DNA of 64,000 nt, taken from Jiangella endophytica. GTDB lineage: Bacteria > Actinomycetota > Actinomycetes > Jiangellales > Jiangellaceae. Position 1 is the first letter of the stretch; every line of letters begins with the position of its first letter. The notes below the pieces were generated by a model. It was not told the origin of the DNA. It made no database searches and worked only from the letters and a program-made list of their open reading frames with translations. Both the position numbers and the translations under genes were made by a program. The stretch is taken from positions 434,001-498,000 of the forward strand of contig NZ_QVAI01000001.1 in the NCBI RefSeq assembly GCF_003427025.1. Reading direction: 5' to 3'. Positions 15,394 to 24,926 of the stretch are shown piece after piece.

Positions 15394-17709
15394 ATGAGTG
15401 CCCTGTTCGACGACCTCACCCTGACCGGCGCGGCCGCGCCGAAGAAGCCGGTCAAGCGGCGGTCACGCGACCCCGAAGCGCTGCTCGACGGCCTCAACGG
15501 GCCGCAGCGCGACGCGGTGACCCACCAGGGGTCGCCGCTGCTCATCGTCGCCGGCGCGGGGTCGGGCAAGACGCGGGTGCTGACGCGGCGCATCGCGTAC
15601 CTGCTGGGCGAGCGCAACGCGCATCCGGGCTCGATCCTCGCCATCACGTTCACCAACAAGGCCGCCGGCGAGATGAAGGAGCGCGTCGCCGACCTCGTCG
15701 GGAAGCGCAGCGACATCATGTGGGTGTCCACGTTCCACTCCGCGTGCGTGCGCATCCTGCGTCGCGAGGCGAAGGTCTTCGGCTACACGTCGTCGTTCTC
15801 CATCTACGACCAGGCCGACTCCCACCGGCTCATGGCCATGGTCTGCCGCGAGCTCGACCTCGACCCGCGCCGCTACCAGCCGCGGCAGTTCAGCTACACC
15901 GTCAGCAACTTCAAGAACGAGCTGATCGACTACGAGACCGCGCTGGCCCGGGCCGACACCCACCACGAGAAGATGGTGGCCGAGGCGTACGAGCTCTACC
16001 AGCGCCGGCTCACCGAGGCCAACGCGTTCGACTTCGACGACCTCATCATGACGACGGTGCACCTGCTGCAGGCGTTCCCCGACGTCGCCGAGAACTACCG
16101 GCGGCGGTTCCGGCACGTCCTGGTCGACGAGTACCAGGACACCAACCACGCCCAGTACGTGCTGGTGCGCGAGCTGGTCGGCACGGGTGTCATCTCCGGC
16201 GAGAACGAGCCCGCGGTGCCGCCGGCCGAGCTGTGCGTGGTGGGCGACGCCGACCAATCCATCTACGCGTTCCGCGGCGCCACCATCCGCAACATCCTGC
16301 AGTTCGAGGAGGACTACCCCGACACCCGGGTCATCCTGCTCGAACAGAACTACCGCTCCACGCAGACCATCCTGTCCGCCGCCAACGCCGTCATCGCCCG
16401 CAACTCCGGCCGCAAGCCGAAGCGGCTGTGGAGCGACAGCGGCGACGGCGCGAAGATCGTCGGCTATGTGGCCGACGACGAGCACGCCGAGGCGCAGTTC
16501 GTCGCCGACGAGATCGACCGCCTCACCGACGAGGGCGAGGCCCGCACCGGCGACGTCGCCGTCTTCTACCGCACCAACGCCCAGTCCCGGGTGCTGGAGG
16601 AGATCTTCGTCCGGGTCGGCCTGCCCTACCGCGTCGTCGGCGGCACCCGGTTCTACGAGCGGCGCGAGATCCGCGACGCGCTGGCCTACCTGCGGTTCCT
16701 GGCCAACCCCGAAGACTCCGTGTCGCTGCGGCGCATCCTCAACGTCCCCAAACGCGGCATCGGCGACCGCGCCGAGGCCATGGTCGAGGCGCTGGCCCAG
16801 CGCGAACGCAGCACGTTCTTCCAGGCGTTGCGGCACGCGGCCGACGCGCCCGGCATCGCGACCCGCTCGGTCAACTCCATCGAGGGATTCGTCCAGCTCA
16901 CCGACGAGCTGCGGGCGCTGGCCGACGACGGCGTCGGGCCGGCCGCCATCCTCGAGGCGACCCTCGACCGCACCGGCTACGTCGCCGAGCTGTCCGAGTC
17001 CGACGACCCCCAGGACGAGACCCGCCTCGACAACCTGCGCGAGCTGGTCGCCGTCGCCGGCGAGTACGAGGCGAGCGAAGACTCCGACGGCTCGCTGCCC
17101 GGGTTCCTCGAGCAGGTCAGCCTGGTCGCCGACGCCGACGAGATCCCCGAGGGCGACGACCACGACGGCATGGTCACGCTGATGACGCTGCACACCGCGA
17201 AGGGCCTGGAGTTCCCGGTGGTGTTCCTCACCGGCCTCGAGGACGGCGTGTTCCCGCACCAGCGCTCGCTCGGCGGCAACGCCCAGGAGCTCGAGGAGGA
17301 GCGCCGGCTGGCCTACGTCGGCATCACCCGGGCGCGCGAGCGGCTCTACCTGTCGCGGGCGCTCCTGCGCAGCGCGTGGGGGTCGCCGGCGCACAACCCG
17401 GCGTCGCGGTTCCTCGCCGAGATCCCCGACGAGTTGATCGACTGGCGCCGTACCGAGGCCGACCAGGTCAAGTGGACCCAGCCGCCGCCACCACGGCGAC
17501 AGCCGGTCAGCGGCCGGTCCGCGGGCGGCGCCGGCAACCGTCCCGTCATCGCGCTGTCGGCCGGCGACCGCGTCACCCACGACGCGTTCGGCCTGGGCAC
17601 CGTCGTCGCCACCAACGGCCAGGGTGAGCACGCCCAGGCCACCGTCGACTTCGGCGAGACGGGCCTCAAGACACTGCTGCTGCGCTACGCGCCGGTCGAG
17701 AAGCTCTGA
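15394..17709 (+). CDS. pcrA: ATP-dependent DNA helicase, PcrA/UvrD type
   Basis: 771-aa SF1A 3'-5' helicase for repair and removal of replication/transcription conflicts. Motif I is AGAGSGKTRVLTRR (about residues 53-66), motif Ia TFTNKAAGEM, motif II VDEYQDTN, motif III VGDADQSIYAFRGA, motif IV LEQNYRST, motif V VTLMTLHTAKGLEFPVVFL, motif VI YVGITRARERL. The C-terminal DRVTHDAFGLGTVV block is the Tudor-like, RNA-polymerase-binding tail of PcrA. Length and motif order match actinobacterial PcrA. Confidence 0.97.
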   Translation: MSALFDDLTLTGAAAPKKPVKRRSRDPEALLDGLNGPQRDAVTHQGSPLLIVAGAGSGKTRVLTRRIAYLLGERNAHPGSILAITFTNKAAGEMKERVADLVGKRSDIMWVSTFHSACVRILRREAKVFGYTSSFSIYDQADSHRLMAMVCRELDLDPRRYQPRQFSYTVSNFKNELIDYETALARADTHHEKMVAEAYELYQRRLTEANAFDFDDLIMTTVHLLQAFPDVAENYRRRFRHVLVDEYQDTNHAQYVLVRELVGTGVISGENEPAVPPAELCVVGDADQSIYAFRGATIRNILQFEEDYPDTRVILLEQNYRSTQTILSAANAVIARNSGRKPKRLWSDSGDGAKIVGYVADDEHAEAQFVADEIDRLTDEGEARTGDVAVFYRTNAQSRVLEEIFVRVGLPYRVVGGTRFYERREIRDALAYLRFLANPEDSVSLRRILNVPKRGIGDRAEAMVEALAQRERSTFFQALRHAADAPGIATRSVNSIEGFVQLTDELRALADDGVGPAAILEATLDRTGYVAELSESDDPQDETRLDNLRELVAVAGEYEASEDSDGSLPGFLEQVSLVADADEIPEGDDHDGMVTLMTLHTAKGLEFPVVFLTGLEDGVFPHQRSLGGNAQELEEERRLAYVGITRARERLYLSRALLRSAWGSPAHNPASRFLAEIPDELIDWRRTEADQVKWTQPPPPRRQPVSGRSAGGAGNRPVIALSAGDRVTHDAFGLGTVVATNGQGEHAQATVDFGETGLKTLLLRYAPVEKL

Positions 17710-17895
17710 GCGCTGCGGCGAGGCAGGTGCGCTCAACCGGCGGCCTGATGCGGTCGAACGTCACCATCCAGCCGCCCCGCGTCAGCGGCCCGTTGGCGTA
17801 GCGGTGGAACGCCTCCAGCCCGGGTCCCGGTCGAGGTGGTGCGCACCCGGTTCAGGAGGCTGCGCAGGTGTGGGCTGATACCTCGGAGCGCCGGC

Positions 17896-18300
17896 TCAGT
17901 CGCTCGCGGTGGTTCGCGTACCCAGAGCCTCGTCGACGGTCAACCGTCCTTCGTGGACCAACTGGCCAACCACCAGGAGCGCGTAGACCGCGGACATGTT
18001 CGGCGGGACGTCCTCGTCGGCGCGCGCCTCGCCCGCAGCCGCACGGATCACCGCCTCCATGAGCGTCACCGCGATGTTCACGGCCCCACCCAGCCGCTCC
18101 GATACCCGCCGCGTGACGGCTGCCGCGAGATTGGGCGTGACCTCCGGGAACGTCCCCACAGCCCGCCTCAGCGCGTCGTGCACGTAGGGCTCCAAGGCAG
18201 GCCACTGGCGCGGCTCATGCGTCTCCAGATGAACGACGAGCTGCGCCGGGCCGCTCGCACAGGCCGCGATGAGCCGCCCCGCGGCGTCAGCGGTCGCCAT
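17896..18300 (-). CDS. Small protein of unknown function, paralogue of the upstream gene product
   Basis: 134 aa, last gene of the J-like/FtsK-like block. From about residue 55 it aligns with the 145-aa product encoded just upstream: AAAVTRRVSERLGG matches AAALTRRVVQRFEG, LMEAVIRAAAGE matches VMEAVIRSAAGE, and VVGQLVHEGRLTVDEAL matches AIGHILHEGHATLDEVL. It is predicted all-helical and soluble. The ATG at 18300 lies 14 nt inside the upstream gene. No known family recognised; the conserved MEAVIR core is the best handle for a search. Confidence 0.8.
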   Translation of the reverse strand: MATADAAGRLIAACASGPAQLVVHLETHEPRQWPALEPYVHDALRRAVGTFPEVTPNLAAAVTRRVSERLGGAVNIAVTLMEAVIRAAAGEARADEDVPPNMSAVYALLVVGQLVHEGRLTVDEALGTRTTASD

Positions 18301-18724
18301 CGAGGTCGTCCTCGTACGACAGGTCGGCCAAGACCTCGTCGAGGGTGGCATGGCCCTCGTGAAGGATGTGCCCGATGGCGATGAGCGAATGGGCTTGCGC
18401 CAGGTCCCGCGGCACGCCCCTGATCGCGTCGTGCTCTCCGGCCGCACTCCTGATCACCGCCTCCATCACCGGTGCGATGACGTTCAGCGAACCTTCGAAG
18501 CGCTGGACGACCCGGCGAGTCAGAGCCGCAGCCGCATCGGCGTCGACCGGCGGTGGGAGGAACTCGACGGCGGAGAGCGTGGCCACGGTGATCTTGAGCG
18601 CACTCGCATCCCAGCCTCGGCGTTCCAGTTCCTGCAAGGCAGCCGTGAACTCTTGCGGCTCGCCCTGCTCGATGGCTTCGGCCGCCCGTCTGATCAGCGA
18701 CGTCACCTGGTCCTGCTCAACCAC
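18287..18724 (-). CDS. Small protein of unknown function, paralogue of the downstream gene product
   Basis: 145 aa, helical and acidic (pattern EAIEQGEPQEFTAALQELER), soluble. It shares a ~75-residue conserved half with the following 134-aa protein, so the pair arose by tandem duplication. The start overlaps the preceding gene's stop by 8 nt, and its own stop overlaps the next start by 14 nt, suggesting coupled translation and fixed stoichiometry. Function unknown. Confidence 0.8.
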   Translation of the reverse strand: MVEQDQVTSLIRRAAEAIEQGEPQEFTAALQELERRGWDASALKITVATLSAVEFLPPPVDADAAAALTRRVVQRFEGSLNVIAPVMEAVIRSAAGEHDAIRGVPRDLAQAHSLIAIGHILHEGHATLDEVLADLSYEDDLDGDR

Positions 18725-19292
18725 CTCTACGTCTCCTTCTCCTCGTCAACCATTGAACAGCACCCTCCCACCCGAGCGTGAGGACGATCAGCACCGCGCT
18801 GACCGGGTTGTCGACTCCGTCGGTCCTGACCTCCGGCGGTGGCCCGATGACCGGTTCGGCGATCTGAGCCGCAACGTCTCCCACGTCGTCGAGCTCACTC
18901 ATGAGGAGCTTGCGAGCTTCTTCGAACTTGTCTGGAGCCGATCGCCTACGTGGCCGTCCCGGGCCGCCGGCGCCTTGGCCGGGTGCCGGACTGCCGGCAG
19001 CTGAGGCGGGCCCGCCGCCGGGCCGGTGGACGAGGTCGTCGGCGTAGTCGTGGCCCGTCTCGGCGGTGGCCGCGAGGTGTGTGACGGCGTCGGTCAACCG
19101 GTCCGCGGCGAGTCGCGCGAGGTGGACGACGCGGATGAGGGCGGTGTCGGCGGGGCCGGCCAGGCGGGCGGCGCGGGCGGCGAGTTGGGTGATGTGCCGT
19201 TGGCGTTCCTGGAGTGAGGGGATGTCGCGTTCGACCTGGCCGGCGAATGCGCGGATCGACTCGGCGAGTCGTTCCAGGTCGGATCGGGGCAT
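18717..19292 (-). CDS. Helical protein with C-terminal membrane anchor, unknown function
   Basis: 191 aa. The N-terminal ~90 residues are helical with heptad character (IRAFAGQVERDIPSLQERQR), followed by a Gly/Pro/Ala-rich linker and a second helical part. Near the C-terminus, VSAVLIVLTLGWEGAVQWL is hydrophobic and is followed by six consecutive arginines, consistent with a tail anchor facing the cytoplasm. It lies 7 nt after the 86-aa gene. No family recognised. Confidence 0.75.
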   Translation of the reverse strand: MPRSDLERLAESIRAFAGQVERDIPSLQERQRHITQLAARAARLAGPADTALIRVVHLARLAADRLTDAVTHLAATAETGHDYADDLVHRPGGGPASAAGSPAPGQGAGGPGRPRRRSAPDKFEEARKLLMSELDDVGDVAAQIAEPVIGPPPEVRTDGVDNPVSAVLIVLTLGWEGAVQWLTRRRRRRGG

Positions 19293-19299
19293 GGGTCGT

Positions 19300-19560
19300 T
19301 CAGAGCCTGGCGGCGTAGTCGTTGGCGGCCCTGGCCGCCTGACGGAGCGCGGCGACGGCCTCGTCGACGCGTCGTTCGGCCGCCTGGAGGGTGTTGATCA
19401 TGTCCTGGTCGACACGTTGGGCCGAGCCGCCGACGGTGGCGCTGACCTGGCTCACCGACTGTGAGAACTTCGTCTTGTAGCCGGCCAGCGATGTCGCGGT
19501 CGCCGAGGCGTCGCGCGACAGTGCGGCGACCTGACTCTTGAGCTGGGCGAGCTGGGACAT
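19300..19560 (-). CDS. 86-aa helical protein of WXG100-like size
   Basis: Two predicted amphipathic helices (about residues 3-40 and 48-85), rich in Ala, Ser and Gln, no membrane segment, no Trp and no WxG motif. Size, helical hairpin pattern and position next to an FtsK/EccC-like ATPase recall WXG100 (ESX) substrates, but the family signature is missing, so this is an analogy only. A strong GGAGGT precedes the ATG, the best ribosome-binding site in this block, as expected for an abundant small protein. Confidence 0.75.
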   Translation of the reverse strand: MSQLAQLKSQVAALSRDASATATSLAGYKTKFSQSVSQVSATVGGSAQRVDQDMINTLQAAERRVDEAVAALRQAARAANDYAARL

Positions 19561-19597
19561 ATGACCTCCAGAGTGGACGGGACGGCTGGGGACACCC

Positions 19598-20059
19598 CTA
19601 GAGCCGAGTTCGCAGAACGACGGCGAGCACGATCAACGCGGCGATGACGCCCACAGTGACGGCGAGACGCCTGCGCCGGCGCGCCGCGCGCCGGGCGGTC
19701 AGTTCGGCCTCCACGGCCCGCTCCACCGCGGCGATCGCGCTCTCGGCGGCCTCGGCCGCCGCGGCGAGGTCGGGCGTCGGCGGCGACATCGGCGGCGTGT
19801 CGATCGGCTGGAGCAGCAGCGGCACCGCGTTGACGCGGTGCAGGGCGTGCCGTACCCGCCGGGTGAAGCGCCGCTCGATGTCGCGCTCCGCGTCCTTGGC
19901 CTGTGCGGTCGTCTCCTCGAATGTCCTCCGGGTCGAGTCGAGCCGCTCCTCCTGGCCGCGACGTCGGCGCTCGCGGTCGGCGTCGGCCTCCTCGGACAAT
20001 GCGGCCAGCCGCTCGACGGCGTCCACGTACTCGTGCCAGGGCTCGCTCAGCTGTCCCAC
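19598..20059 (-). CDS. Coiled-coil protein with C-terminal membrane anchor
   Basis: 153 aa from a GTG (20059) that lies 13 nt inside the preceding frame. Residues about 8-60 form a charged coiled coil (EEADADRERRRRGQEERLDS), then a Pro-rich loop (QPIDTPPMSPPTPD) and a second helix. An Arg-rich stretch (TARRAARRRRRL) sits before the single hydrophobic segment VTVGVIAALIVLAVVL at the extreme C-terminus: a tail-anchored protein with a cytoplasmic coiled coil. Function unknown; it could tether the ATPase to the membrane. Confidence 0.75.
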   Translation of the reverse strand: MGQLSEPWHEYVDAVERLAALSEEADADRERRRRGQEERLDSTRRTFEETTAQAKDAERDIERRFTRRVRHALHRVNAVPLLLQPIDTPPMSPPTPDLAAAAEAAESAIAAVERAVEAELTARRAARRRRRLAVTVGVIAALIVLAVVLRTRL

Positions 20060-20691
20060 GGCTCGTCTCCCAACGTGCGGACATCGGCAGCAGAGAGCGG
20101 CCGGAACGGCACGATGACGTGGGGGTCGGCGGACTCGGTGCGGTCGTGGAGGAGTCCGCGAGGACCCTCCGGCTTCCACACCGTGAACGGCCCGAACAGG
20201 TCCTGGACGTCGCCCGCGGAGATCCGCAGGGCCAGGAGGCCGTCGATCGTGTCGGCGGCGTCGAATCCGAGCTGCTCGCGCATGACGCGGACGCTGGACC
20301 ACCAGGCCAGCAGGTGCGCGCCCACGGGCGGACCGTCGCGCAGCAGCGCCCGCAGGCCGTCCGCCGGCGTCGAGACCGCCCCGCTGGTGAGATCGAGCTC
20401 GGCCAGGCGGCGGGCGCGATCGAGGCCGAAGGCGACGACGTAGAGCGTGGTGTCGTGCTGGGTCTGTCGCGCCTCGACCACGTCGGTCAGCCGCGAGAGG
20501 TACGCGGGCACGTCGCCGCCACGCAGGTGTTCGACAGCGGCGCCCGTGGTGGTGAGGGCACGGACGAAGCCGGCGAGGTTTCCCGCGGCGGCCAGGTCGG
20601 TGGGCAGCAGGTCGAGGACGACGATCTCGGCGTCGGCCTCGGGGTGCTGCAGCGCCAGGCTCAGGGCCGCGGCCTGCAAGGCGCCGACCGC
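20047..20691 (-). pseudogene. 3' part of the FtsK/EccC-like gene, cut off by an in-frame amber codon
   Basis: This frame is exactly in phase with the upstream ATPase reading frame and separated from it only by the TAG at 20692-20694. It encodes about 214 residues that look like the body of a third FtsK-type domain, missing its own Walker A region (LQAAALSLALQHPEADAEIVVLDLLP). A TTG at 20679 is the only nearby start and has no ribosome-binding site. Its stop overlaps the start of the 153-aa gene, so the amber would also uncouple downstream translation. Alternatives are readthrough, a real gene split, or a sequencing error. Confidence 0.75.
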
Positions 20692-22827
20692 CTAGTTCTG
20701 CTGGGCGGCACCGGACCCCGCTCGGGAGGCGCCGGCCCCGACGACGGCGAGGTGGCGGCCGTTGTCGTCGGTCATCGGGATGCCCACCGCCGGCGCGCCG
20801 ACGTCGAGCGCGGTGCCGAGCAGGGCCTGTCGCACCCGGGACCGGTCGCGCTGGGCCTGCCGGAGTGTGTGCAGCACCGCGCGTGAGTCGGCCAGCGCCG
20901 GCGCATGGGCTCCGTCGAAGACCGCGGGCGTCGGCAGGTCCGCGCCGAGAGCGTCGCACATGCGCCGGCGAAGGCTGCGCAGCTGGTCCTCGGCCGCCCA
21001 TGCCACGGTCGCGCGGCGGTTGGCCTCCACAGCGCCGAAGTCGAGGTTGAGGAGGAGCTCGCCGCGGTAGCGCAGCCGGGCGGCCTCGGTGTTGTTCTGG
21101 TCGAGCACGGCCTGCGACTCCGACGCCGAGTTCTTCAGCGCCAGCCGTACCGGGAACTGCGCGAAGATGCCGTCCTGCTTGGCCAGCAGCGGCGTGATGC
21201 CGGACAGCGTCTGGGACGCGAGCAGGAGATGGATGCCGTAGGCGCGACCCTTGCGCGCCAGTCGTTCGAGGTCGGCCAGCGCCCGCTCGGTGATGTCGTC
21301 GTCGGAGTCGAACAGCACCTGGAACTCGTCGACGACCACCAGGATGCGAGCCATCGCGTGCGCCGGGTCGGCGAGCCGGTACTTGGTGATGTCGTCGCCG
21401 TACCCGCGGATGATCGCGGCCCGCCGCTCGAACTCCGCCACGAGGTGCGCCAGTACGGCTGCGCCGTAGGAGCGATCGCTGTTGAGGCCAATACTGCGGG
21501 CGTGCGGCAGCCACGACGGCGACGCGTCGGACATCGCGCCCAGCGGCTCGAGCGTCACGCCCTCCTTGAAATCGAGCAGGTGCATGTCCAACTCGGCCGG
21601 CGGGTAGCGCATGGCGAGGCTGTGGATGATGGCCATGAGCAGGTTGGACTTGCCCTGGCCCACAGCGCCGGAGACGAGGATGTTGTGCCGCTGGTCGACC
21701 TCGTCGCCGAGCGTGACGGCCACCGGCTGGTGGCCGGCCCGCCCGATGGTGGCCACCAGGCGCATCGCCGAGCTGTCCGACATGAGCGGGAGGTCGGGCT
21801 GGCAGGCCAGGAAGTCGATGCGTGGGGCCTCGGCGCCGCGGGACCGCTCGGCGAGGGTGGCGACGGCCTCGGGCAGCCCGGGCTCGGAGCGCGGCCGCGT
21901 CGTCCAGCCGGGCAGCCACGACGCCTGGGCCGACGAGCCGTCGACGGTGATGACCTGGCCGAGCTCGGCCAGGCGGGGCTCCACCTCGACGGGCGCGTGG
22001 TGCAGCACCGTGCTGATGCCGTTGACCGGACCCTGCCGCATGATCGTGACCAGGTCGGACCTCGCCCGTTCGGTGAATCTGGCGGGATAGTCGGCCACGA
22101 CGAGCAACTGGTACGTCCCGATCGGCTGACCCGTCTCGCGGCGCATCCGGCCGAGCGTGGTCCGGCGTCCGTGGAACATCTCCACCGTGGACCGGAGGTC
22201 AGCGACCAGGCCGCGGAGCAGTTCCTCGATCTCCGTGTCCGACCCCGCCGGAGCCGAGAGGAGGTCGTCGTTGGCGGCTTTCAGCGGCGAGAAGACGGCC
22301 AGGGCGGACCGCACCTCCGGGTCGACGGGACGGATGCGGAGTTGTCCGGGCCCGGTGCCGGACAACGCCTGGTAGACGACTGACCGCAGGAGGTCGGCGA
22401 CGCTCTCGGACCATGCTCCGGCGACGACGAGGTTGCCGTGGTCGAGCAGTGGAGCGACGGTCAGAGTGCTCACCGGGCTTGTGCGGCCAGGCAGTTCGGC
22501 GGCGAGGGAAGCTGCACCGAGATCGACGTACTCGGCGGCGGCGAGCGGGTCGGCGGCGCCGCGAGCCGGAGGGATCAGCGCCGCCACCGCCGCGCGCAGC
22601 CTGGAATCCTGTAACTCGGCCTGCTGGATGACCTGGTCGCGTAGCCGCCCCTCAGCGGCGCCCGATTCCTCCGCCAGCGCGGCGATGTGCTCGTCCCGAT
22701 CACGTTCCAGCCGTTCTCGGTCGTTCGCGGCGGCGTGCCGCAGGACGCCCTCCGCGTCGCGGAAGTCACGTACCGCCGCGCTGAGCTCGGCCGATACGGC
22801 GGGTCCGGCCGGCGTCAGATCCCCCAT
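20692..22827 (-). CDS. FtsK/SpoIIIE-EccC-like ATPase, interrupted by in-frame TAG
   Basis: 711 aa up to the TAG; 926 codons if the amber is read through. An N-terminal charged coiled coil (about residues 10-95) is followed by a first, degenerate ATPase-like module without a P-loop. A canonical FtsK module has Walker A SGAVGQGKSN (about residues 386-395) and Walker B ILVVVDEFQVLF (about 495-505), plus a sensor-like LLLASQTLSG. A third module starts at GRHLAVVGAGASRAG and is cut by the stop. Three tandem modules and conserved catalysis in only one recall EccC/EssC of type VII secretion. I see no membrane helix, unlike EccC. The ATG overlaps the J-like gene by 13 nt. Confidence 0.85.
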   Translation of the reverse strand: MGDLTPAGPAVSAELSAAVRDFRDAEGVLRHAAANDRERLERDRDEHIAALAEESGAAEGRLRDQVIQQAELQDSRLRAAVAALIPPARGAADPLAAAEYVDLGAASLAAELPGRTSPVSTLTVAPLLDHGNLVVAGAWSESVADLLRSVVYQALSGTGPGQLRIRPVDPEVRSALAVFSPLKAANDDLLSAPAGSDTEIEELLRGLVADLRSTVEMFHGRRTTLGRMRRETGQPIGTYQLLVVADYPARFTERARSDLVTIMRQGPVNGISTVLHHAPVEVEPRLAELGQVITVDGSSAQASWLPGWTTRPRSEPGLPEAVATLAERSRGAEAPRIDFLACQPDLPLMSDSSAMRLVATIGRAGHQPVAVTLGDEVDQRHNILVSGAVGQGKSNLLMAIIHSLAMRYPPAELDMHLLDFKEGVTLEPLGAMSDASPSWLPHARSIGLNSDRSYGAAVLAHLVAEFERRAAIIRGYGDDITKYRLADPAHAMARILVVVDEFQVLFDSDDDITERALADLERLARKGRAYGIHLLLASQTLSGITPLLAKQDGIFAQFPVRLALKNSASESQAVLDQNNTEAARLRYRGELLLNLDFGAVEANRRATVAWAAEDQLRSLRRRMCDALGADLPTPAVFDGAHAPALADSRAVLHTLRQAQRDRSRVRQALLGTALDVGAPAVGIPMTDDNGRHLAVVGAGASRAGSGAAQQN

Positions 22828-23939
22828 CGAACGACATCCCCTTCTCCGGCCTCCACCGCGAGCTTCTCGGCGCGCCAGCCCGGCAGCCGGTTCCGGACGG
22901 CATAGACGACAGGGACGCCGAGCAACAGGATCCACTGGATGAGACCTGGCAGCTCGCTGCGCCAGGCAAGGAGCAGCACCAGGGTCATGGCGACGACATA
23001 AGGCGTGAGCCTGGTGTGGCGTACGAAGCGACGCTGTTCGGCGAGGAAGCCGTGCACCTCCAGCCAGTGGATCGAGCTGCGTAGCTCCGCGTCGTCATAT
23101 CGCAGGGGCTCGGCCAGCGGCAGGTTCTGCTTGGCGAAGTCCACCTGCGCCGGGCTGGTGAACTTGTAAGTGCCGCCGGGCTCGACCACGGTCAACCGGG
23201 ACAGGACGGCGTCGTGGAGGGCCGCGGCGTACATGCCTGAGACATACCGGTTGTTCGGATGCTTCTGGTGCAAGGCAGCGAGCCTGGCGACGGCGTCGTC
23301 GGGGCGACGCGCGAGGAGGTCGACGAGACCCCAGCTGACCTCCACGTGGACATCGTCAGGGCGCAGTCCGTCCACCTTCCTGAGCGTGGCGTACGCGTCG
23401 TCGAACCGCTCGAGCTGCCCCTGCGCGTCCACGAGGTCGAGCAGGCCGTCGACGTCGTCCGGGTCATGCCGAGCAGCCTCGCACAGCTCGAACTCGGCCT
23501 GGTAGTGGTTGCCGAGCATGAACGATGCTCGGGCGCGCACGCGCCAGGCGGTGCTGTCGTTCTGGTCGGCCGACGTGGCCTCGCGGGCCGCGAGCCGGGC
23601 CCGCTGTGCGTCGCCGGCGGCGAGGTACTCTTCCGCTCGCCGCACCCACTCCTCGGCGTCGTCGGCCTCCGGCGGTGGTGGCGACGACTCCGCCGCGTCG
23701 ACCGTCGTGGAGCCGCGAGAGCTGTCGTAGCGTTGCCTGCCGAGGGGGTCGAGCAGCGTCTGCTCGGCGTCGTCGATCTGCCGCATCCTGGTTTTCGCCT
23801 CGGCCCGCCGCTGTGCGTCGGGGCTGTTCCGCCGGTGAATCCAGAGAATGCGCTGCCTGCGCACCGCCTCGAGAACCTCGCCCTTGGTCGCGGTCGGCGC
23901 GACGTCGAGGATGGCGTAGAAGTCGACGGGCTGGGCCAT
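22815..23939 (-). CDS. J-domain-like, TPR-containing membrane protein
   Basis: 374 aa. The first ~70 residues read like a DnaJ domain (FYAILDVAPTATKGEVLEAV ... IDDAEQTLLDPLGRQRYD), but the HPD tripeptide needed to stimulate Hsp70 is missing: the loop reads HRRNSPD. Residues about 90-230 are TPR-like helical repeats (AEEYLAAGDAQRARLAAREA, AEFELCEAARHDPDD). Two hydrophobic segments lie near the C-terminus (TPYVVAMTLVLLLAW and LIQWILLLGVPVVYAV). It is probably a membrane-anchored scaffold for the ATPase encoded next. The ATG at 23939 starts 1 nt after the stop of a short Hsp70-like frame. Confidence 0.85.
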   Translation of the reverse strand: MAQPVDFYAILDVAPTATKGEVLEAVRRQRILWIHRRNSPDAQRRAEAKTRMRQIDDAEQTLLDPLGRQRYDSSRGSTTVDAAESSPPPPEADDAEEWVRRAEEYLAAGDAQRARLAAREATSADQNDSTAWRVRARASFMLGNHYQAEFELCEAARHDPDDVDGLLDLVDAQGQLERFDDAYATLRKVDGLRPDDVHVEVSWGLVDLLARRPDDAVARLAALHQKHPNNRYVSGMYAAALHDAVLSRLTVVEPGGTYKFTSPAQVDFAKQNLPLAEPLRYDDAELRSSIHWLEVHGFLAEQRRFVRHTRLTPYVVAMTLVLLLAWRSELPGLIQWILLLGVPVVYAVRNRLPGWRAEKLAVEAGEGDVVRWGI

Positions 23940-23940
23940 G

Positions 23941-24084
23941 TCATTCCACCTGGATGACCTGGTCGAGATCGCAGGAGCCGACGACCGTGAACGGCGCACC
24001 GAGTGGATTGAGCTGAGCGATACCTGAGTACCTTGTGCCAAGGCAGATCCCCAGCGCATTCGCCACAGGCACTCCAGGCTTCAC
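23941..24084 (-). pseudogene. Short frame resembling the N-terminus of an Hsp70 (remnant)
   Basis: A 47-codon frame (GTG at 24084, or GTG at 24066) ending 1 nt before the J-like gene. Its product contains LGICLGTRYSGIAQLNPLGA, strikingly like the phosphate-1 loop at the start of Hsp70 proteins (GIDLGTTYS...), with Asp replaced by Cys and Thr by Arg. It stops where an Hsp70 would continue for 500 or more residues. The simplest reading is that an Hsp70-like gene once preceded the J-like gene and was mostly deleted. A functional leader peptide is the alternative. Confidence 0.45.
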
Positions 24085-24173
24085 TCGGTCACAATGGTGA
24101 GTCGAGCAGGATATAACACACCGTCACATCATCCGTACGGGGCGGGAGAGCCGGCGGCGCCCTCGCGGCCGGT

Positions 24174-24926
24174 TCAGACGCGGCGGAAGAGGAGGGCGCG
24201 CTTGACCTCCTGGATGGCCTTCGTCACCTCGATGCCACGCGGGCAGGCGTCCGTGCAGTTGAACGTCGTCCGGCAGCGCCAGACGCCGTCGCGGTCGTTG
24301 AGGATCTCGAGGCGTTCCTCGGCGCCCTCGTCGCGGGAGTCGAAGATGAACCGGTGGGCGCCGACGATGGCCTGCGGGCCGAAGTACTGGCCGTCGGACC
24401 AGTAGACCGGGCAGGACGTCGTGCAGGCGGCGCACATGATGCACTTCGTGGTGTCGTCGTAGCGGGCGCGGTCCTCGGGGGACTGACGGCGCTCGCGGGA
24501 CGGGTCGTTCCCGGACGTGACGAGGAACGGCATGATCGACTTGTACGCCTCGAAGAACGGGTCCATGTCGACCACGAGGTCCTTGAGCACCGCGAGGCCC
24601 TTGATCGGCTCGACGGTGATCGGCTTGTCGAGCGGCAGGTCCTTCAGCAGCGTCTTGCAGGCCAGCCGGTTGCGCCCGTTGATGCGCATCGCGTCGGAGC
24701 CGCAGATGCCGTGGGCGCACGAGCGCCGGAACGTCAGCGACCCGTCGATCTCCCACTTGATCTTGTGCAGCGCGTCGAGCACCCGGTCGGTGCCGTGCAT
24801 GGTGACCGTGTGGTCCTCCCAGCGCGGCTCGGTGTCGTTCTCCGGGTTGAACCGGCGCAGCCGCAGCGTGACCTGGAAGGACGGGATCGCGCCGGCGGCC
24901 GGCGCGTCGGCAACAGCAGCAGTCAT
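24174..24926 (-). CDS. sdhB: Succinate dehydrogenase iron-sulfur subunit
   Basis: 250 aa. Carries electrons from FAD to quinone in complex II. The [2Fe-2S] ligands lie in RRSCAHGICGSDAM and RLACKT. The [4Fe-4S] and [3Fe-4S] ligands lie in CIMCAACTTSCPVYW and CTDACPRGIEV. The ATG shares one base with the sdhA stop (TGATG). It ends the sdhCDAB operon. Confidence 0.96.
   Translation of the reverse strand: MTAAVADAPAAGAIPSFQVTLRLRRFNPENDTEPRWEDHTVTMHGTDRVLDALHKIKWEIDGSLTFRRSCAHGICGSDAMRINGRNRLACKTLLKDLPLDKPITVEPIKGLAVLKDLVVDMDPFFEAYKSIMPFLVTSGNDPSRERRQSPEDRARYDDTTKCIMCAACTTSCPVYWSDGQYFGPQAIVGAHRFIFDSRDEGAEERLEILNDRDGVWRCRTTFNCTDACPRGIEVTKAIQEVKRALLFRRV

Follow-up and report, generated by a model that had tools for sequence, protein, structure and literature searches.

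A mobile insert in Jiangella endophytica carrying a probable reduced copy of a type VII-like toxin export operon with dedicated chaperones

Described type VII-related systems and the Jiangella locus

Type VII secretion systems (T7SS) have been classified into T7SSa (ESX) and T7SSb to T7SSj (Garrett, Higginson and Palmer, 2024; PMC11217815), and an ATPase with three modules and no transmembrane (TM) helices is in print for mobile T7SS-like operons (PMC3482391, 2012; PMC11090510, 2024). Anantharaman 2012 is cited here as quoted in PMC11090510 on mobile T7SS and CoCoNuT-associated EssC-like ATPase operons. Here, we analyzed a cluster of ATPase, J-like, and hairpin genes in a stretch of 64,000 nucleotides from Jiangella endophytica (contig NZ_QVAI01000001.1, positions 434,001 to 498,000; hereafter the window). 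We propose that this locus probably arrived by horizontal transfer and is a reduced version of an operon that, when intact, would serve the type VII-like export of polymorphic antibacterial toxins. An initial annotation of the same stretch had described a candidate undescribed system that looked like a pared-down machine of type VII or of another membrane-associated ATPase kind; the resemblance was partly borne out by the ATPase, the predicted hairpin, and the conserved neighbourhood, but the annotation had overlooked the Hsp70 and GrpE of many relatives, the toxin cargo with a related hairpin domain in some, and the reduction of the copy in the window.

As T7SSa to T7SSj are set out in the available text of PMC11217815, they share with the locus an EccC/EssC-type ATPase with small helical hairpin proteins, and toxin cargo that has an N-terminal helical domain and small partners. 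Their ATPases, however, are membrane-bound with four predicted NTPase domains, whereas those of the locus family have three modules and no membrane helices, and the ATPase studied here does not fit a T7SS definition worded after that text. Hsp70, DnaK, DnaJ, and GrpE have no occurrences in it, and none of EccB/D/E, mycosin, EssA/B, EsaA, or YukD was matched among the locus-family proteins given to Pfam (a subset). The ATPases of the mobile T7SS and CoCoNuT-associated operons are more similar, with three FtsK/HerA modules of which the middle one alone is active (PMC3482391, PMC11090510); the CoCoNuT-associated one also lacks membrane helices, has a coiled coil at its N terminus, and is partnered by WXG100 or WXG100-like proteins (PMC11090510). 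The contexts differ, since the available texts place mobile T7SS ATPases with vWA, restriction, or solo-WXG genes, whereas the locus family combines a tail-anchored protein with Hsp70, J, and GrpE; the available part of PMC3482391 contains none of the words ‘dnak’, ‘dnaj’, ‘grpe’, and ‘chaperone’. The combination of Hsp70, GrpE, and J/TPR proteins (TPR, tetratricopeptide repeat) in actinobacteria and firmicutes is found in theme 2 of the GAP1-N2 GTPase systems (PMC7159879, 2020), but these are centred on GTPases and FNIII proteins, and WXG, type VII, T7SS, and ESX have no occurrences in the available text. We rejected a GAP1-N2 system for this locus, with no such family among ten accessory proteins scanned.

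LXG/WXG polymorphic toxins resemble the locus family in having a helical N-terminal domain, a variable toxin, and small neighbouring genes, but here the N-terminal domain is about 95 aa long, lies outside Pfam cut-offs, and is related to the 86-aa hairpin family described below. Among open-licence PMC texts, with subscription papers and preprints mostly uncovered, we found no description of Hsp70, J, and GrpE together with an EccC-like ATPase and hairpin toxins. The three-module ATPase type and the idea of mobile T7SS relatives are in print, and the combination with a chaperone module is, as far as our literature search reached, undescribed.

Operon conservation and toxin cargo in relatives

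The J-like protein of the window, searched alone, retrieved only itself and one further relative, and the search was moved to the ATPase. The loci analyzed here are the best 80 of 519 stretches matched in a contig scan with three ATPases; genes were called by our own codon-usage script, and 23 of the 80 have less than 4 kb on one side. Their record titles point to many Actinomycetota genera, with Bifidobacterium and Coriobacteriia among them, to Clostridia, and in two assemblies to Saccharibacteria. Both Saccharibacteria cases could reflect transfer or binning, and L034, which is one of them, has a gene with a sub-cut-off phage-integrase match beside the operon. A recurrent order (e.g. L034-L037, L041, and L042) is Hsp70, a J-like/TPR protein with a membrane segment, GrpE, and the ATPase, followed by a coiled-coil protein with a C-terminal membrane segment, an 86-aa hairpin, a long hairpin protein, and one or more small proteins. 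In Clostridia (e.g. L044, L048, and L052), the ATPase is followed by three or four small hairpins, Hsp70, GrpE, and J-like proteins. A plasmid search with the L042 ATPase returned one record, and others’ annotation of a Rhodococcus plasmid reads Hsp70, TPR, GrpE, FtsK/SpoIIIE, hypothetical, 86-aa, and 272-aa protein.

Across the 80 loci, we counted Hsp70 in 26 (including L033, where the gene is broken, and L040, where it was called as two open reading frames (ORFs)), J in 40, GrpE in 24, all three in 21, and none of the three in 37; at least one hairpin was present in 75 and a long hairpin protein in 35. For the 57 loci with at least 4 kb on both sides, the corresponding numbers are 20, 32, 17, 17, and 24, with a hairpin in 56 and a long hairpin protein in 27. 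A supported clade of 44 loci that includes the window has Hsp70 in 21, J in 37, GrpE in 21, a hairpin in 42, and a long hairpin protein in 12 (17, 30, 16, 30, and 9 for its 31 loci with at least 4 kb on both sides, where Haloactinopolyspora is the only one without J). The 36 loci outside the clade have Hsp70 in 5, J in 3, GrpE in 3, a hairpin in 33, and a long hairpin protein in 23; in a branch with Mycobacterium, Actinomyces dentalis, and Gardnerella ATPases, no Hsp70 or J was found nearby. These groupings come from a quick tree with long-branch warnings, from which 13 near-identical Kribbella loci were left out. As judged from these gene orders and counts, the gene set is real and conserved across phyla, more than chance. 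The co-occurrence that the initial annotation had proposed to look for was thus found, with ATPase homologues across phyla keeping a similar neighbourhood.

The long proteins encoded downstream in relatives suggest what is carried. A Pfam toxin family was found in five of the nine tested: ADPrib_exo_Tox (an ADP-ribosyltransferase; E = 1.8e-8 and 1.3e-5), calpain (4e-13), Gln_amidase (a papain-fold deamidase; 9e-13), and CdiA_C (the CdiA nuclease; 4.2e-7). These different C termini stand behind one N-terminal domain, as expected of polymorphic toxins, and this domain of about 95 aa has no Pfam family over the cut-off in the nine scanned. A profile built from seven seeds that we selected, with the window protein left out, matched 79 of 1335 locus genes, six of them the seeds, compared with three reversed and no shuffled controls. 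Of these matches, 72 lie on the ATPase strand within 12 genes, and the other seven elsewhere in four of the same loci; our gene caller missed at least one long hairpin protein (L035). The same profile matches 86-aa proteins (best E = 1.2e-9), which shows at the level of sequence profiles that the small hairpins are related to the toxin N termini.

The ATPase, the hairpin, and the candidate cargo

The ATPase of the window is read on the minus strand as an N-terminal part of 711 aa (20692-22827), with a coiled coil, module 1, a middle module (GAVGQGKS), and the start of module 3. Here an in-frame amber codon, TAG (20692-20694), cuts the reading frame, which continues open through the remainder of module 3 (20047-20691, with a possible TTG start at 20679). 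The multi-module FtsK-like ATPase of the initial annotation was confirmed as to family (Pfam FtsK_SpoIIIE, E = 2.8e-20), but it is not one open frame. The intact ATPase of a relative is 922 aa long and uninterrupted, and AlphaFold2 (AF2) predicts for it a coiled coil followed by three modules, with the position of the TAG within the third. The P-loop occurs only in the middle module: one Walker A motif was counted in each of 28 aligned ATPases (author-selected), and all 28 are single ORFs. The N-terminal coiled coil stands where membrane helices would, and the window ATPase has no hydrophobic segment over the hydropathy cut. Its nearest relative, in a search of 60, belongs to the same family and is 62% identical (Haloactinopolyspora alba, L032).

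Compared with solved structures by profile search and by predicted structure, the ATPase comes nearest to EccC/EssC, with PDB profile matches to EccC (2.9e-42), YukB (2.6e-29), and FtsK (3.8e-16), and EccC/EssC top-ranked by Foldseek. That it instead pumps DNA as an FtsK or conjugation ATPase, with unrelated neighbours, is hardly credible, as both searches favour EccC/EssC and the genes that recur beside it encode hairpins, chaperones, and toxin-like proteins. It scores 92.5 bits against NCBIfam EccCa, far under the 509-bit cut-off. A known defence system was also rejected: PADLOC matched the ATPase only to mad8 (2.6e-18), SspH (2.4e-17), HerA, and mad3, and was empty for the other seven proteins.

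The Jiangella genome has further ATPase genes. A second cluster (L024, 8823-13786) has a 933-aa ATPase, a protein with three hydrophobic segments, and helical proteins of 201 and 126 aa, and recurs in the same genus (L022 and L023). Another contig (L025, 6921-12052) encodes an EccC that looks canonical (about 1560 aa) next to a WXG protein of 89 aa, downstream of genes that look Tad-pilus-like by eye. We rejected a canonical ESX cluster for the locus itself: no EccB/D/E, mycosin, or WxG was matched, and the canonical-looking pair lies elsewhere. With the L025 pair in the genome, the locus could be an orphan ESX cluster of ordinary type that relies on the membrane core of the canonical T7SS, but we consider this very unlikely, as the cluster has its own ATPase of different architecture, WxG occurs in only 1 of 140 small proteins, and the operon also occurs on a plasmid and across many distant genera.

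The 86-aa protein (19300-19560, minus strand) is predicted by AF2 to form a two-helix hairpin (pLDDT 92; helices 3-43 and 49-85) with the turn mid-protein. This agrees with the WXG100 superfamily in size and architecture (about 100 aa, two-helix hairpin), and bears out the WXG100-sized protein without WxG of the initial annotation, which had asked for a structure prediction. The protein is 79% identical in Haloactinopolyspora and 65% in L034. An assignment to WXG100 by sequence was not reached, with ESAT-6 at only E = 0.37, behind unrelated coiled coils. Of the 46 small proteins that we selected for models and alignment, two matched the WXG100 family (best E = 0.0022), and the best value, 6.1e-5, belongs to another family (25 of 44 families listed). 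In place of WxG, the turn has G followed mostly by S or T. D or E never occurs at the place of the C-terminal YxxxD/E motif in the 46 alignment rows; an aromatic residue lies near the C-terminal end in 33, and the residue four positions later is L, I, M, or A. EsxEF came first among tied fold matches. DUF6244, for which our literature search found no paper, was also considered for the hairpins and matched only weakly.

Between the ATPase and the hairpin lies a coiled-coil protein of 153 aa (19598-20059, minus strand), whose C-terminal membrane anchor is clear by the hydropathy cut. A single-sequence search gave a homologue in Haloactinopolyspora (E = 8.9e-8) and no other among the 80 loci; proteins of similar size and layout occupy its place in other loci. 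The second protein that had been called tail-anchored, of 191 aa (18717-19292, minus strand), stays under this cut. With its N-terminal hairpin-like domain, Gly/Pro linker, and variable C-terminal domain, it is a candidate cargo, and its gene occupies the cargo place of relatives. It is followed by candidate immunity proteins of 145 aa (18287-18724) and 134 aa (17896-18300), both on the minus strand and, as first described, paralogous, with 48 of 134 aligned residues identical. Homologues of the two were found in only one of the 80 loci (L032, Haloactinopolyspora; E = 3.8e-32 and 8.7e-13). The three proteins weakly fit a cargo with its immunity pair. In agreement with the initial view that the accessory proteins lie outside recognised families, none of the five in the window passes the cut-off of a Pfam or NCBIfam family.

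The chaperone set, the reduced copy, and the proposed export

The first gene of the run encodes a J-like/TPR protein of 374 aa (22815-23939, minus strand), which matches DnaJ (28.4 bits, cut-off 27.8) and TPR_19 (37.3, cut-off 25) in Pfam and has a C-terminal hydrophobic segment near residue 330. As originally noted, it lacks the HPD motif. HPD is the usual contact of J-proteins to Hsp70. The motif is absent from all 51 J-like regions, a count possibly biased by profile seeds that are themselves HPD-less; by eye, a W-x-x-R pattern is common at this place. One base upstream of the J gene lies a 41-aa ORF (24066-23941, minus strand) that the initial annotation had overlooked, in the position that Hsp70 occupies in some relatives (e.g. 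L034-L037). We scored it with a profile from 23 of the 28 Hsp70 hits, selected by length (500-542 aa). It ranks top of 1010 stop-to-stop ORFs in the window (8.5 bits, E = 0.032, against 2.9 bits for the next ORF and at most 5.8 in 20 shuffled sets), and its alignment runs collinearly over Hsp70 positions 3-20, then 458-478. Because the best of the 1010 ORFs is the one at the syntenic place, it is likely an internal-deletion remnant of a dedicated Hsp70 gene; the ORF has no Pfam match, and no Hsp70 domain was found in the window. GrpE is absent from the gene set of the window. In the genome, PF00012 and PF01025 occur only on contig C56, close together, like a housekeeping DnaK-GrpE pair.

Pfam confirmed these families in the relatives scanned: the L034 Hsp70 matches PF00012 at 2.3e-127 (profile positions 1-514 of 599), and GrpE was found by Pfam in L034 (1.6e-17), L029 (3.8e-14), and L044 (4.6e-18). 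Pfam was given this one Hsp70 and these three GrpE members, and the other loci were scored by profiles built from the set. The Hsp70 of intact relatives lacks the full lid region. Some loci vary the set. In L033 (5580-6797), the Hsp70 gene is split by an inversion, with 76 aa on the plus strand and the remainder on the minus strand; because this is a metagenome assembly, the inversion may be an artefact or an invertible segment. L036 (9649-12420) has three additional J-like proteins in one operon, one of them fused to DUF4190. In a Haloactinopolyspora locus (L018, 14455-14961), a DnaJ-related DJC28_CD protein is encoded downstream (E = 1.3e-23), with no J-like protein found nearby. L070 (15138-16703), the one locus scanned from the branch with Mycobacterium, Actinomyces dentalis, and Gardnerella, has an AAA+ ATPase (Pfam AAA, 1.4e-30), perhaps as a replacement for the Hsp70 set.

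The locus lies in a block of 6464 nt (17710-24173) between pcrA (15394-17709) and sdhB (24174-24926), within which the seven genes form a tight run on the minus strand (17896-23939; spacings of -14 to +37 nt), as first described. In another genome of the genus (G006), about 34 nt separate the pcrA and sdhB ends. The third-position GC content (GC3) of the island genes is 0.78-0.92, and that of pcrA, sdhA, and sdhB about 0.97. The sequence at this site shows an insertion in this genome, probably acquired horizontally on mobile DNA. The site behind pcrA is variable within the genus: most genomes read have a PadR-like pair (by eye), one has sdhB directly, and one another gene. The 86-aa profile matches 3 of 396 genomes in the phylum, 2 of 22 in the family, and 1 of 12 in the genus (the window genome is counted each time), with no match in the 11 other same-genus genomes searched. 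These counts are lower bounds, as at most 13 candidates were scored per genome (three in one earlier scan).

With its Hsp70 cut to a 41-aa ORF, no GrpE, and a TAG that splits the ATPase, the window copy is most likely impaired or recently decaying. A streamlined working copy, with the 41-aa ORF as a translational leader, the housekeeping DnaK and GrpE as partners of the J-like protein, and an ATPase that functions as two chains, strikes us as doubtful. Conservation is similar on the two sides of the TAG (430 of 699 aligned residues identical before it, in the comparison with Haloactinopolyspora, and 125 of 213 after it, in that with the intact relative), the remaining genes are open, housekeeping DnaK and GrpE are present, and the Haloactinopolyspora ATPase is intact with no Hsp70, J, or GrpE nearby. 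The TAG, however, lies inside the third module, relatives encode the ATPase as one ORF, and none of the J-like regions has the HPD motif. In the tree, the window and Haloactinopolyspora are sister to two Hsp70-bearing loci (support 99*).

For the intact relatives, we infer a private chaperone set consisting of a dedicated Hsp70, GrpE, and the membrane-anchored, HPD-less J-like/TPR protein. The soluble three-module ATPase, which has an N-terminal coiled coil, would be docked at the membrane by the J/TPR protein and the tail-anchored coiled-coil protein. The 86-aa hairpin would pair with the N-terminal hairpin domain of the toxin, the chaperones would keep or pass on this cargo, and the ATPase would power its export, with the producer protected by one or two small immunity proteins. 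Alternatively, the operon might be an intracellular, abortive-infection-like conflict machine, in which Hsp70, J, and GrpE sense damage and the ATPase frees or remodels a toxin-hairpin complex with no export. Conflict systems with Hsp70, GrpE, and DnaJ/TPR proteins are described in actinobacteria and firmicutes in the available text of PMC7159879, no pore subunit was recognised, and mad8 and SspH, both defence proteins, are among the matches of the ATPase. Yet EccC/EssC are nearest to the ATPase, hairpins occur in nearly all loci (75 of 80), no GTPase or GAP1 family was found in ten accessory proteins scanned, and some cargo joins an N-terminal hairpin to a toxin like LXG proteins; we regard this alternative as unlikely.

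Several observations weigh against export by a type VII-like machine, or against parts of it. No EccB/D/E-like pore subunit was recognised that would explain the route through the membrane. The structural match to EccC spans 715 residues at an rmsd of 14, so the module arrangement differs, and the middle module by itself fits FtsK best. Hairpin folds are generic, and non-Esx chains tie with Esx. Hsp70 is missing nearby from 17 of the 40 loci with J and from 31 of the 36 outside the clade (some on short contigs), which means that not every member of the family needs the chaperones; the remnant call itself depends on 8.5 bits. Long hairpin proteins occur in only 35 of the 80 loci and 12 of the 44 in the clade, and four of the nine scanned (L036, L037, L040, and L091) have no toxin family over the cut-off. 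The 191-aa protein scores E = 4.9e-5 with the toxin N-terminal profile, near the best reversed control (6.1e-5), and 8.9e-7 with the iterated profile, no better than its control (8.4e-7). Neither of the two refuting findings named in the initial annotation, homologues already assigned to a described system or no conserved neighbourhood, appeared in the data found, because the ATPase is nearest EccC/EssC, the 86-aa protein has a hairpin fold, and the neighbourhood is conserved.

We know of no dedicated Hsp70 system for type VII secretion. More tentatively, the export operon proposed here may represent a secretion machine of a class of its own, whose motor includes the private Hsp70-GrpE pair and the membrane-anchored J/TPR protein without HPD. 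Cycles of Hsp70 on toxin-hairpin complexes would then be coupled to a soluble EccC-like hexamer docked through coiled coils, without an EccB/D/E pore. This class would have spread on mobile DNA among Actinomycetota, Clostridia, and (two assemblies) Saccharibacteria, with an AAA+ ATPase in place of the Hsp70 set in at least one locus. If the intact relatives export toxins with the help of these chaperones, they would offer a model of about seven genes for the long-standing question of how hairpin-tagged toxins stay export-ready and reach an EccC-like motor, and would be a new source of antibacterial toxin-immunity pairs. The window copy and its Haloactinopolyspora cousin show which parts can be the first to go.

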